IMG/VR virus record: IMGVR_UViG_3300047643_000075
Location: 1 to 27,243 of that record
Source of the DNA: a virus
DNA: 27,243 nt
Direction: 5' to 3' (one strand)
A program made the translations under genes and the position numbers. Position 1 is the first letter of the stretch; every line of letters starts with the position of its first letter. The notes beneath the pieces were generated by a model, which was given only the letters and a program-made list of their open reading frames with translations, was not told the DNA's origin and searched no databases. Positions 10,822 to 16,679 of this stretch are shown piece after piece.

Positions 10822-11339
10822 AGATGATCGAACCCAAACAAATACAACTATTGCACATCGCGAAATCTCAATGCGGATTGAGCGACGATGATTACAGGGA
10901 CATTATCGCGGGCCAGACCAAAGGCAAAAAAACATCGAGCAAAGACCTAACCTATTTCGAAGCCGACGCGGTGATTAATTATTTTGTAAAGACGCTGGGC
11001 TTTAAAGTCAAATCAAAATATATCCGCACCTCCGGCGCAGCGCGCCGCTCGCGGTGGCAATATGCAAGCAGGGGCACGATGCATCGTGCCCCTACCCGAA
11101 CGGCACCATTACCGGATAACGTAACACAGCTTCCCTCCCGCGATCAGCTCGACATGATTGACGCCCTGGCTGAACAGATTACCTGGAAAGTGGAAGGCGG
11201 TTTTACGCGATGGCTGTTTAAGTATTTCCATACGGAAAGAATCACGACAGTGGCACAGGCCCAGCGCGTTACAGAAGGCCTAAAGGGCATGCTGGTTAAT
11301 CAAAACAAAGCTCCCTCTCCCTTGAGGAGAGAGGGTTAG
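10818..11339 (+). CDS. gemA: GemA-like regulatory protein (DUF1018)
   Basis: A 173-residue GemA homologue; in Mu, GemA modulates host gene expression and DNA topology. The N-terminal signature is clear: KQIQLLHIAKSQCGLSDDDY, RDIIAG, TYFEADAVINYFVKTLGFK. The C-terminal region (LDMIDALAEQITWKVEGGFT and RITTVAQAQRVTEGLKGML) also fits. Two anomalies are visible. A perfect 24-bp palindrome (11070-11093) sits in frame at residues 85-92 in the linker between the halves. The last residues (KAPSPLRREG) and the stop codon are encoded by a CCCTC-type repeat. Confidence 0.85.
   Translation: MKMIEPKQIQLLHIAKSQCGLSDDDYRDIIAGQTKGKKTSSKDLTYFEADAVINYFVKTLGFKVKSKYIRTSGAARRSRWQYASRGTMHRAPTRTAPLPDNVTQLPSRDQLDMIDALAEQITWKVEGGFTRWLFKYFHTERITTVAQAQRVTEGLKGMLVNQNKAPSPLRREG
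11070..11093. repeat. Perfect 24-bp palindrome inside gemA
   Basis: AGGGGCACGATG is followed directly by its exact reverse complement. Flanking GC-rich sequence (..CAAGC and ACCCG..) fits a class of GGGGCACG..CGTGCCCC repeats common between genes in environmental bacteria. Here it lies in the coding sequence and keeps the frame. Confidence 0.85.
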
Positions 11340-11353: not shown

Positions 11354-11668
11354 ATGGCTGAAAACTGGCTAAAAGAAATCGCCGCCGAAATTCCTCTGGA
11401 TAGTTTACCGGAGGAGTATCAGATCATCGCCGAACTTTTCGGGATGGAAGGCGCGCTGAAGCTGGCACAGCATTCCGGGAGTATGCGGATATACGTCCCG
11501 AAACTGGATACCCTTGTACGCGAGCACCGTGACGCCCGCATTCGAGCCGAGTTCACAGGATTCAATCACCGCGATCTGGCCCGCAAATATAACCTCTCCG
11601 AATCATGGATTCGCGAAATCGTGCAGCATAGATCATCCGACGATCAAACCGATATGTTTGCCGAATAA
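11354..11668 (+). CDS. mor: Mor-family transcription activator
   Basis: A 104-residue member of the Mor/C activator family, which in Mu switches on middle (Mor) or late (C) transcription by binding upstream of promoters lacking a good -35 box. Landmarks: the dimerisation part with IIAELFGMEGALKLAQHSGS, the beta strand MRIYVPK, then LVREHRDARIRAEFTGFNHR and a C-terminal helix-turn-helix DLARKYNLSESWIREIVQ. It is slightly shorter than Mu Mor (129). No second member (C) is visible downstream, so this protein probably controls the whole late region. Its ribosome-binding site comes from the preceding repeat. Confidence 0.92.
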   Translation: MAENWLKEIAAEIPLDSLPEEYQIIAELFGMEGALKLAQHSGSMRIYVPKLDTLVREHRDARIRAEFTGFNHRDLARKYNLSESWIREIVQHRSSDDQTDMFAE

Positions 11669-11676
11669 ATCATTGC

Positions 11677-11692
11677 CTCGCGCGCGCGCGAG
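11677..11692. repeat. 16-bp alternating CG palindrome
   Basis: CTCGCGCGCGCGCGAG is a perfect palindrome starting 9 bases after the mor stop codon. Alternating purine-pyrimidine of this kind can form a hairpin or Z-DNA. It is not followed at once by a T-run, so a terminator role is unproven. Confidence 0.7.
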
Positions 11693-11767
11693 AGCCCGGC
11701 TTTTCAAGTATTTTGTCCAAGCAAATATCTCAAGTGCTTTGGTAGTCACCAATTCATAAATCATTTA

Positions 11768-11883
11768 GTTTCAATCCCACATGAAGCATCTCCTCGCCAT
11801 AGTTTGCCGGATCTGATCGGGTGGTCGCCATCCCGCCCGATCAACCGGCAGGCGAATAAGAGCGAGGATCAGGGGATTGAAAC
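11768..11883. repeat. Large imperfect inverted repeat before the endolysin
   Basis: The outer arms GTTTCAATCCC (11768-11778) and GGGATTGAAAC (11873-11883) are perfect reverse complements. Inside them the arms keep matching in order: CTCCTCGC with GCGAGGAT, TGCCGG with CCGGCA, and GATCGGG with CCCGATC around a short loop near 11825. The right arm contains AGGGG, the likely ribosome-binding site of the endolysin, and ends at its ATG. In RNA this would be a long hairpin hiding that site. Confidence 0.75.
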
Positions 11884-12507
11884 ATGCGCCGACTCATCGT
11901 CACGATTATATTTCTTCTTATTGCTCAGCCGATTTTTGCGGCTGATTTTTTACCTGTATGGCAAAACACTATTCTCCCGCATGAAGGCGGATACTCAAAC
12001 AACATCCACGATCCCGGAAACTGGACTGGCGGCAAAGAAGGCAAAGGCCGCTTTCTCGGAACAAAGTACGGCATCGCGGCCAGCCAATACGGCACAAGCC
12101 TGTTAAAGCAAGGCATCATCATCAAACACCTCACCAAAGAACAGGCCAGGGATTTATTCGAGCGCGACTATTGGCTGAAATTCCACTTCGAAGAATTAAA
12201 ATCTCAGGGCATTGCCGACGAACTCTGCGACGAAGCCGTGAACATGGGCGGCGCAGCGGCAGAGAATTTGCTCCGCAAGGTATTCGTTGAGATTGCGTGG
12301 GCTACCGGAACATCAATTCCCGTCCCGTGGAAATTTACGCCGGAAACAATGCAGTGGATCAATGAGTACACGGAAAGCCGCTCCAACCGCGTGGCCTTTT
12401 TTAATTCTATCAGAAACAAACGGGTGAAATTCTACGCCGACCTCGTCAAAAGGCGACCGGCGATGAAAGAGTTTTTCATCTCCTGGATAAATCGAAGCGT
12501 AGACTGA
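11884..12507 (+). CDS. Endolysin, glycoside hydrolase family 108
   Basis: A 207-residue muramidase-type endolysin that cleaves the glycan chains of peptidoglycan. Residues 1-19 are a signal peptide (MRRLIVTIIFLLIAQPIFA), so it is exported by Sec. The GH108 motif ILPHEGGYSN gives the catalytic Glu34, followed by HDPGNWTGG and TKYGIA. The C-terminal half (DEAVNMGG.. and the WINEY..RVAFFNSIRNKRVKFY region) matches the associated peptidoglycan-binding domain. Mu Lys is similar in place, first of the late genes. Translation may be held by the inverted repeat immediately upstream. Confidence 0.93.
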   Translation: MRRLIVTIIFLLIAQPIFAADFLPVWQNTILPHEGGYSNNIHDPGNWTGGKEGKGRFLGTKYGIAASQYGTSLLKQGIIIKHLTKEQARDLFERDYWLKFHFEELKSQGIADELCDEAVNMGGAAAENLLRKVFVEIAWATGTSIPVPWKFTPETMQWINEYTESRSNRVAFFNSIRNKRVKFYADLVKRRPAMKEFFISWINRSVD

Positions 12508-12711: not shown

Positions 12712-13152
12712 ATGTATGTAACCTTGATTAAATGGATATGGGATAACAAAGCCCTCGCGCTTGCGGCGGCTCTTGTCATTGTCGTCGTTGTGGCCGGTCT
12801 GATCATCGGCGTTCAGCACGTCAACATCATGATTAAAAAAGCGGACATTAAAACCCTTAAAGTTGAAAACAAAACACTAACCTCAGCCAATAATATTATG
12901 AACCGCAACGCCGATGCATCCCGCGTTGCGGATGAAGAAATAAAAACAATCCAAAAGCAGGCGGAACCGCTCCGTGATCTGGCGGAAAGCCTGACGGAAA
13001 AAGAAAAGGCAGGATTGAACAATGAAAAGATGGATCGCATTAATGATTGTCTCGGCGCTTTTTTTACTGACGGCGTGCTGCCCGGAACCTGTGCTGGTGA
13101 AACCGTTCTGCCGCAGTCCGCTGGCGCCAACGTGGAAAAAGGGCGGAAGTAA
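12712..13152 (+). CDS. Rz-like inner-membrane spanin
   Basis: A 146-residue protein with the layout of an i-spanin: a short cytoplasmic start, one membrane span at about residues 14-35 (ALALAAALVIVVVVAGLIIG), then a long periplasmic helical region rich in Lys, Glu and Asn. It would join with the outer-membrane partner to fuse the two membranes in the last step of lysis. The identification is supported mainly by the overlapping lipoprotein gene in another frame (13022-13249), the classical Rz/Rz1 arrangement. The C-terminal region (CLGAFFTDGVLPGTCAGE) is encoded within the overlap. Confidence 0.8.
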   Translation: MYVTLIKWIWDNKALALAAALVIVVVVAGLIIGVQHVNIMIKKADIKTLKVENKTLTSANNIMNRNADASRVADEEIKTIQKQAEPLRDLAESLTEKEKAGLNNEKMDRINDCLGAFFTDGVLPGTCAGETVLPQSAGANVEKGRK

Positions 13153-13249
13153 TTTCGTTATCAACAGCACGAATACTGTCATCTACGCAAAGGAACTGGA
13201 AAAAACAGTGAAGTGCTACGAGCAGACATTTAATGAGCCTGTGAAATAA
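13022..13249 (+). CDS. Rz1-like outer-membrane lipoprotein spanin, nested in Rz
   Basis: A 75-residue lipoprotein starting inside the Rz-like gene in a different frame and running 97 bases past it. The signal peptide is MKRWIALMIVSALFLLTACC with lipobox LTAC and lipidated Cys19. The mature part includes CCPEPVLVKPFC, a proline-containing stretch as in Rz1 proteins, and ends in a helix (YAKELEKTVKCYEQTF). AGGATT lies upstream of its ATG. It is the o-spanin that pairs with the preceding protein. Confidence 0.85.
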   Translation: MKRWIALMIVSALFLLTACCPEPVLVKPFCRSPLAPTWKKGGSNFVINSTNTVIYAKELEKTVKCYEQTFNEPVK

Positions 13250-14960: not shown

Positions 14961-16494
14961 ACGACAGAATCTTTCCGAACCGCAATTTGACGATTTTGTA
15001 AATTCGCTGCGCAAAAAAATCGCCGAGAGCGTCTCTCCGTTTGAAAACGATACGCCTGCAAAGAAGAAAGATCGCATTGCGCGTTGCGCTGATCCGCTCA
15101 CGTTCATGCAAACCTATATGCCGCATTATTTCCCGGCAGCGCCTGCCGATTGTCACGCCGAATGGTGCGAGATTGCCGACACACCGGGATTCAATCTGAT
15201 GGGCGCTCCGCGCGATCACGCCAAGACCACAGTGGTCACCTTCGGCCTGCGCGTTTACCGCATCGCCCGGAAACTGCGAAAATACATTATGCTCGGTTCC
15301 AATATCCATGACCAGGCTAAACGCTTCAGCGTCAGCATCAAAGTCGAGTTGGAAGACAATCCCCGCCTGCGCCATGATTACGGCGAGGCCATCGCTAAAA
15401 CCAGAACATGGGGCGATGATCTGTTCATCACTAAAGGCGGGACGATGGTGGAAGCCCTGGGACGCGGCGATCAGTGGCGAGGCAAGAAGTTCGGCCCTTA
15501 TCGTCCGGACGATATCGGCCTCGACGATCTGGAAGATAACGCCACAGTCAAAAGCCCGGCGGTCACCCGCGCCATCGTAGAATTTATCCAGGGCGAAGTC
15601 CTAGGCTGTATAGAGGGCGATTGCTCGGCCACGATGGTCGGCAACGTCTTCCATGCCAAAAGCGCCCTTTCTCAATTGATAGCGATGGAAGACGAAGACT
15701 CCGGCGAGAGACTCTACAATTCCAAAGTTTATGACGCTATCGTTGATGAGGAAAAGCATATTACCCTCTGGCCCGCCCGCTGGCCCTGGGAAAAACTGAT
15801 GCGCCGCAAATCAATGATTACGACCCGTGTCTTTAACAAAGAGTACCGCAACAAATCAACGGAGGAGGACAGCCCTTTCCCGCAGGAAACGGTCAGCTAC
15901 TTTGAACGCGTTGAACTTCTCCGCGTCCCATTGATCTATGCCACCGGAGTTGATCCGGCAAGTACTGCGGGTTCCAGCAGCGATTTTCGCAGTGTGGTCA
16001 CCTGGGGACTGGAACGGGTCAAAATGGAATTCTTCTGCATGCATGCCTGGATCAAGCGCCGTTCCATCGGTGAATTCTTTGCCGCCGCCTACGCGCAGCA
16101 TGATGATTATCCGGGCCCGGTCGTCGTCGAAGAAAACATGCTCAAGGATTTTCTGCACGAGGCGATCCAGAATTATGCCATACAAGTGGGCAGATATTTG
16201 CCCTGGGACCCGATTCATCATTCCACAAGCAAGATCGACTCGCGCATCATCGGCACCTGCGAATATTTGTGGGAACACAAAAAAATGCACTTTGAAAAGC
16301 GGCACAGCGATCAAAAGATATTGGAAGAGCAGTTTGTCTATATCATGAACCCGACCGTCCATGACGACGGCCCGGATGCTTCGGAAATGGCCATCAGTAA
16401 TCTTCAACATGGCAACGGATTAATCGAATTTCAATCGACCGGTGTCCGGAGTGTTACTTCCGGGGCATCCATGAACTCATATTTGGGACGGTGA
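14947..16494 (+). CDS. Large terminase subunit (Mu gp28-like)
   Basis: A 515-residue packaging motor with ATPase and nuclease halves. Walker A is MGAPRDHAKTT (residues 85-95) and Walker B is DDIGLDDLED (188-197). The RNase H-like nuclease has GVDPAST with Asp336, VVVEEN around 392-397 with a likely acidic ligand, and HDDGPDASE with Asp residues at 473-477. It pumps DNA into the prohead and makes the headful cut. Length is close to that of Mu gp28. An ATG two codons later (14953) is an equally possible start. It ends directly before a palindromic repeat. Confidence 0.92.
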   Translation: MVMRKRQNLSEPQFDDFVNSLRKKIAESVSPFENDTPAKKKDRIARCADPLTFMQTYMPHYFPAAPADCHAEWCEIADTPGFNLMGAPRDHAKTTVVTFGLRVYRIARKLRKYIMLGSNIHDQAKRFSVSIKVELEDNPRLRHDYGEAIAKTRTWGDDLFITKGGTMVEALGRGDQWRGKKFGPYRPDDIGLDDLEDNATVKSPAVTRAIVEFIQGEVLGCIEGDCSATMVGNVFHAKSALSQLIAMEDEDSGERLYNSKVYDAIVDEEKHITLWPARWPWEKLMRRKSMITTRVFNKEYRNKSTEEDSPFPQETVSYFERVELLRVPLIYATGVDPASTAGSSSDFRSVVTWGLERVKMEFFCMHAWIKRRSIGEFFAAAYAQHDDYPGPVVVEENMLKDFLHEAIQNYAIQVGRYLPWDPIHHSTSKIDSRIIGTCEYLWEHKKMHFEKRHSDQKILEEQFVYIMNPTVHDDGPDASEMAISNLQHGNGLIEFQSTGVRSVTSGASMNSYLGR

Positions 16495-16504
16495 AAAGTA
16501 AAGT

Positions 16505-16538
16505 TTGTCATTCCCGCGCAGGCGGGAATCCAGGAATA
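16505..16538. repeat. Palindromic repeat, CATTCCCGCG/CGGGAATCC type
   Basis: Second copy of the element at 14410-14443, differing at one base in the loop. It lies between the large terminase and a small ORF, for which its CAGGAA may act as ribosome-binding site. Confidence 0.85.
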
Positions 16539-16544
16539 GAAAAT

Positions 16545-16679
16545 ATGCAAAAAAACAGACGCCGCAAATTTAGCCCACAATCAATCCAGCCGGTTTTTGG
16601 CACCATTGGGGCGGGAGTTTCATTGACACTGTTTATAAACATAACGTCGCGCGCGACAGGGGCGAAATTATCATGCTAG
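16545..16679 (+). CDS. Small basic ORF before the portal gene
   Basis: A possible 44-residue protein, starting MQKNRRRKFSPQSIQPVFGT, then a moderately hydrophobic stretch (IGAGVSLTLFINIT) and ending 7 bases inside the portal gene. The ATG at 16545 follows the repeat-borne AGGAAT; an in-frame GTG at 16491 would translate the repeat itself and is not favoured. No family recognised. Evidence is only position, overlap and a basic start. Confidence 0.35.
   Translation: MQKNRRRKFSPQSIQPVFGTIGAGVSLTLFINITSRATGAKLSC

Follow-up and report, generated by a model that had tools for sequence, protein, structure and literature searches.

Gene context of the hairpin

The window, that is, the whole stretch of DNA analysed (27,243 nucleotides), corresponds to a 27.2-kb virus record, and its gene content is that of a Mu-like phage. 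Genes for transposase, GemA and a Mor-family activator are followed by the late genes, which encode, in order, a GH108 endolysin, an Rz-like spanin, terminase and portal. The late operon is single in the window, and a hairpin is located between the Mor-family activator gene (PF08765), which adjoins the putative late promoter, and the lysozyme gene.

11354..11668, + strand: gene for a transcription activator of the Mor family, at the end of the early operon (Pfam PF08765, E 4.6e-18)
11884..12507, + strand: endolysin, glycosyl hydrolase 108, first late gene (Pfam PF05838, 1.2e-17; phrog_315 endolysin)

The N-terminus of the endolysin is a signal or SAR segment. Within 12712-13249, an Rz-like protein (12712-13152) and a lipoprotein (13022-13249, LTACC), whose gene overlaps that of the Rz-like protein out of frame, likely constitute a two-component spanin, as in Mu. 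A perfect palindrome (AGGGGCACGATG/CATCGTGCCCCT) occupies 11070-11093 in gemA, and a further repeat, CTCCCTCTCCCTTGAGGAGAGAGGG, is located near 11310-11335; both resemble dispersed repeats of a host that were put into the coding region. The product of a short ORF at 16491-16560, CHSRAGGNPG, is typical of the GTCATTCCCGC..GCGGGAATCC palindromic repeat, and a similar repeat (MSFPRRRESR) was found 3' of mor in L002, one of the relatives designated here by L numbers.

Architecture and folding of the leader

The sequence-only reading had described the segment 11768-11883 as a hairpin with exact outer arms, inward matching blocks and the AGGGG of the ribosome-binding site in its right arm. This architecture was confirmed: the 11-bp arms are exact, three inner helices are present, and the matching blocks are real (UCCUCGC/GCGAGGA, GUUUGCCGG/CCGGCAGGC and UGAUCGGGUGG/CCGCCCGAUCA), with AGGGG at 11871-11875 and the ATG at 11884.

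11768..11778, + strand: left outer arm GTTTCAATCCC, at the place of the putative promoter and start site (sequence match)
11791..11797, + strand: lower stem, 5' side (partner 11862-11868, predicted fold)
11802..11810, + strand: middle stem, 5' side (partner 11845-11853, the conserved ACCGGCAGGC side)
11814..11824, + strand: apical stem, 5' side (partner 11833-11843), the most variable among relatives
11871..11875, + strand: Shine-Dalgarno AGGGG (from sequence; anti-Shine-Dalgarno duplex -6.5 kcal/mol)
11873..11883, + strand: right outer arm GGGATTGAAAC, which covers part of the Shine-Dalgarno and runs up to the ATG (identical sequence in L002)

A second purine block, GAGGA at 11864-11868, lies about 16 nt 5' of the ATG and is probably not the Shine-Dalgarno because it is probably too far from the start codon. 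The predicted fold of 11750-11900 had an energy of -65.3 kcal/mol against -40.1 +- 4.5 for shuffled sequences (z -5.6), and none of the 200 shuffles was as good. The window holds 12 inverted-repeat pairs of at least 11 nt, including several exact 11-mers, and the outer 11-bp arms alone are unremarkable for it. The significance of the hairpin thus lies in the nested whole and its conservation in relatives, not in the outer arms alone.

The leader gave no match to a covariance model of Rfam 15 at the gathering score. A leader peptide starting at 11782, ATGAAGCATCTCCTC, was rejected as it has no counterpart in L002 and is frame-shifted in L004. The arms GTTTCAATCCC/GGGATTGAAAC resemble the ends of CRISPR repeats; this identity was discarded because in relatives the left arm varies in the manner of a promoter (AATGTAATCC), and because neither direct repeats nor spacers were seen nearby.

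Conservation of the leader in relatives

Relatives were found via the endolysin and the Mor protein. A hairpin was present 3' of mor at the same place in L002, L003, L004/L006, L008, L116, L117, L118 (where it is cut by the contig end) and L119, and also in L143/L144, L146, L147 and L148. The first late gene varies among these phages, being a GH108 lysozyme, a phrog_465-type endolysin (L008) or a gene for a small membrane protein (L143/L148). Since the hairpin stays while the first late gene differs, the leader belongs to the late promoter rather than to the lysozyme gene. Profile searches of genome contigs with the lysozyme and Mor alignments found no relatives, and pattern scans of viral contigs outside the known loci yielded chance matches.

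The consensus made with MAFFT/RNAalifold, whose alignment was disturbed by the variable apical stems, showed weak covariation only, and a cross-pairing test of the arms was used in its place. For 11 leaders, the duplex energy averaged -48.9 kcal/mol between arms of the same leader and -33.5 kcal/mol between foreign arms, a difference of -15.4; dinucleotide shuffles treated alike gave -2.3 +- 1.6 and never went beyond -6.7 in 100. Because their own arms pair better than foreign ones, the arms have stayed matched while diverging. The fold z of nine of the 10 leaders tested was between -3 and -8, the remaining one (L119) being at -2.2.

The most conserved features of the leader are the inner hairpin and the motif CAYCTCY, which resembles the 3' tail of 16S rRNA.

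11787..11793, + strand: anti-Shine-Dalgarno-like motif CATCTCC (CACCTCC in others), conserved

The distance of this motif from the activator centre is nearly fixed, +47 to +54 in each of the 12 leaders for which a centre could be defined. In the window it pairs with the purine block just 5' of the Shine-Dalgarno, and direct pairing with the Shine-Dalgarno itself was not found there; in L117, L119, L143, L147 and L148, part of the motif pairs with the Shine-Dalgarno. The inner hairpin and CAYCTCY may serve in protection of the 5' end, in keeping the lysozyme rate low, or in an action on RNA polymerase.

A putative late promoter within the left arm

11728..11743, + strand: putative activator site of the Mor type, TCTCA-AGTGCT-TTGGT, with CAAGYGCTTTGGTAG (11731-11745) as its conserved core
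11764..11769, + strand: putative -10 box TTTAGT (TTTAAT in relatives), in conserved AATCNNTTA (11759-11767)
11776..11779, + strand: predicted late transcription start, from the -10 box and Mu Pm spacing

The signature GCTTTGGTAG-N13-AATCNNTTA, which overlaps the putative 16-bp activator element at 11728-11743, is exact in six phages (the window, L002, L004, L008, L116 and L117). A more perfect form of this putative site, TGTGAAGCGCTTCACA, was found in L143 (TGTGA-AGCGCT-TCACA). It has a 5-6-5 arrangement like the Mor site of Mu, which is centred at -43.5 and accompanied by a -10 box and no -35 (PMC4390567). The pairs matching in the 16-bp dyad number 4/8 in the window, 8/8 in L143 and 7/8 in both L119 and L151. 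The window has one activator-like site of this kind; another dyad, TTTGGTagtcACCAA at 11738-11752, was rejected as the activator site because it is not conserved.

The -10 box lies 29-34 nt 3' of the activator-site centre, and TTTAGT is a weak match to TATAAT. The start would be at 11779 by the Mu spacing (43.5 from the centre) and at 11776 by 7 nt from the -10 box. A generic sigma-70 scan gave no hit, as expected, because an activator-dependent promoter should escape such a scan. According to the sequence-only reading, a transcript start inside the repeat, to the right of 11778, would leave the ribosome-binding site free and thereby refute its hiding; the predicted positions come very close to this.

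For most of its length, the left outer arm (11768-11778) appears to consist of promoter and start-site sequence, and it shows no conservation as an arm. This would explain why it is alike in relatives whose leaders lack a right arm to match it. Since the putative promoter coincides with the left arm, the late RNA would lack most of that arm.

Calculated opening of the Shine-Dalgarno

The calculated cost of opening the Shine-Dalgarno was about 11-12 kcal/mol for RNA starting at or before 11768 and 3.2-3.6 kcal/mol for RNA starting at 11775-11779, against a mean of 3.3 and a maximum of 8.6 kcal/mol for 28 other genes of the window. By this calculation, the read-through RNA carries the most closed ribosome site among the genes examined, and the late RNA an ordinary one. 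The proposal that the hairpin hides the ribosome-binding site is therefore supported only for RNA with the whole left arm, as expected from early read-through, for which the cost was 11.3-11.7 kcal/mol.

A similar drop was calculated for L002 (from 8.4-10.2 in the long RNA to 2.7-3.0 in the late RNA) and for L147 (from 11.3 to 4.5, partly via sequence upstream of the arm). The cost changed little with the start in L003, L004, L008, L116, L117, L143 and L148, and in L119 the mask was already gone upstream of the -10 box. Predicted masking is thus common to the window, L002 and probably L147, most relatives being without it. No phage but the window has the perfect outer arm, and its right half recurs in L002 only, so that the case for a mask comes down to a single ancestral right arm and L147.

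Early terminator and terminator-like hairpin around the putative late promoter

11677..11708, + strand: terminator of the early operon in degenerate form; palindrome CTCGCGCGCGCGCGAG, the TTTT lying several nt past the stem (score -23.7)
11925..11951, + strand: terminator-like hairpin with T6 in the first lysozyme codons (score 10.9)

An intact CCCCTCCTCGC..GCGAGAGAGGGGTTTTC was found at the equivalent place in L004, L008 and L117, with scores of 33-36. Including L003, these strong terminators scored 25-36, followed by L116 (14) and L002 (11), and the degenerate cases were the window (-24) and L147 (-28). The phages with strong terminators (L003, L004, L008 and L117) have no mask, and masked leaders tend to have a weakened early terminator, in what is a small set. 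Exceptions are L143/L148, with neither a recognisable terminator nor a mask, and L116, with a middling terminator and a slight mask.

The hairpin at 11925-11951 has counterparts in L003, L004 and L005 in different codon phases and a weak one in L002. Lying in the signal-peptide codons, it could, speculatively, be a translation-coupled attenuator that stops untranslated RNA.

Proposed explanation and alternatives

The leader is best explained, with a probability of roughly 50%, as that of a Mu-like late operon whose lysozyme Shine-Dalgarno is masked in early read-through RNA and left open in late RNA. The adjacent Mor-family protein would activate the late promoter, with transcription starting at about 11776-11779. 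The late mRNA would then begin as the left outer arm ends and carry the inner hairpin alone, with the lysozyme Shine-Dalgarno about as accessible as those of other genes. The degenerate terminator of the early operon would let read-through RNA include the whole left arm, which would pair with GGGATTGAAAC and mask the Shine-Dalgarno, so that lysozyme would not be made early. Were transcription to begin at 11768-11771, the late RNA would by this calculation still be masked. Such masking does not need the strongly conserved inner hairpin and CAYCTCY.

These two features are the ground for another account, which we consider possible though rather unlikely. Here the inner hairpin has the conserved function, either stabilising a very long late transcript or fixing a low translation of the first gene, and the outer arm pairs with the Shine-Dalgarno as an incidental trait of the lineage. 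The arms matched within each leader (-48.9 against -33.5 kcal/mol), the fold z in nine of 10 leaders, the fixed distance of CAYCTCY and the retention of the hairpin before GH108 lysozyme, phrog_465-type endolysin and other first genes all agree with it. However, it leaves unexplained the exact 11-bp outer arm at the ATG and the loss of that arm across the start.

The sequence-only reading had suggested a translational timer, in which the whole hairpin in the late mRNA delays lysozyme until something opens it. The Shine-Dalgarno would indeed be masked if transcription started at or before 11768, but the promoter geometry points to 11776-11779, most relatives are without the outer arm and no trigger is known, and a timer is therefore improbable. 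The predicted start at the inner edge of the arm together with an ordinary calculated opening cost for the late RNA (3.6) argues for a guard against premature lysozyme instead.

The leader might also act in cis on RNA polymerase and modify it along the long late operon, in the manner of the put RNA of HK022 (PMC9378689), which is no more probable than the timer. The leader is promoter-proximal, conserved and structured, heads one long late operon and follows the single activator-like site in the window, but it is conserved as a hairpin at a ribosome-binding site and has no Rfam match. The mobile-element remnant also suggested earlier, here a palindrome of the MITE/REP type that inserted before the lysozyme gene, is very improbable despite the palindromic shape and the presence of other palindromes resembling dispersed repeats in the phage (11070-11093), since such an element needs several copies at unrelated sites, whereas this hairpin is syntenic in relatives, has co-varying arms and showed no second copy in the record, in 50,697 phage records or in the other fetched loci.

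Terminators of the same geometry in other Mor phages

Another Mor lineage of 13 phages (L123, L150-L154, L158, L159, L162, L164-L166 and FP_Mushu L185), whose hosts are probably Firmicutes, carries an intrinsic terminator before the first late gene, with a left arm that spans the predicted late start. In 12 of the 13, the calculated energy of the terminator hairpin went from between -17 and -24 kcal/mol in read-through RNA to between 0 and about -8 in RNA from +43/+44 relative to the activator centre (the exception being L162), in a set of mutually related phages where several centres are weak dyads chosen by eye. These results suggest that a start inside the left arm of a hairpin is a recurring design in Mor phages. 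An incomplete literature search found no prior description of a terminator with a late start in its left arm.

As in L150-L166, L123 and FP_Mushu L185, the left arm of the window hairpin crosses the predicted late start. Unlike those hairpins, which have a U-tract and would stop transcription, that of the window has no U-tract and covers the Shine-Dalgarno. A tentative joint reading, less likely than not, is that Mor-activated Mu-like phages of distant hosts share a hairpin with the start in its left arm that blocks early read-through, in one lineage by termination and in others by masking the Shine-Dalgarno of the lysis gene, and that late RNA initiated at the right place is the only RNA to escape. 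The window lineage would add a second conserved layer that controls the first late gene, made up of a co-varying hairpin and, about 4-10 nt past the start, a motif resembling the anti-Shine-Dalgarno.

Comparison with known systems

In T4 gene e, long early transcripts hide the ribosome site and late promoters within the 5' arm free it, as is experimentally documented (PMC3014915, citing McPheeters 1986). Against that account, the window likewise has a lysozyme gene whose Shine-Dalgarno is predicted to be masked in long early RNA, and a predicted late start that drops most of the left arm, the mask falling by several kcal/mol. It differs from T4 gene e, as described there, in being a Mu-like phage with a Mor-type promoter, in retaining a conserved inner hairpin in the late RNA, in sharing its right arm with L002 alone and in having a mechanism that is predicted.

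Like Mu Pm/Plys, the window has a Mor-family gene directly upstream and a lysis gene early in the late region (PMC4390567; AF083977), with a putative activator site and -10 and no recognised -35 (PMC4390567). Unlike the window, Mu has a predicted terminator in the upstream part of Pm, and its annotated lys ribosome-binding site lies at the end of the Plys feature; a long hairpin leader is absent (AF083977). The leader shares with HK022 put RNA that it is a promoter-proximal structured phage RNA; put acts on RNA polymerase, in early operons (PMC9378689).

In summary, the analysis defines a conserved leader RNA without an Rfam match. The proposed mechanism would extend the principle of T4 gene e, in which the masking arm contains the start, to transposable phages, whose promoter system is unrelated, and would connect Shine-Dalgarno masking with the terminators that share this geometry in other Mor phages. 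It may offer a simple explanation for the silence of lysis genes before the late phase in long early-to-late transcription units.
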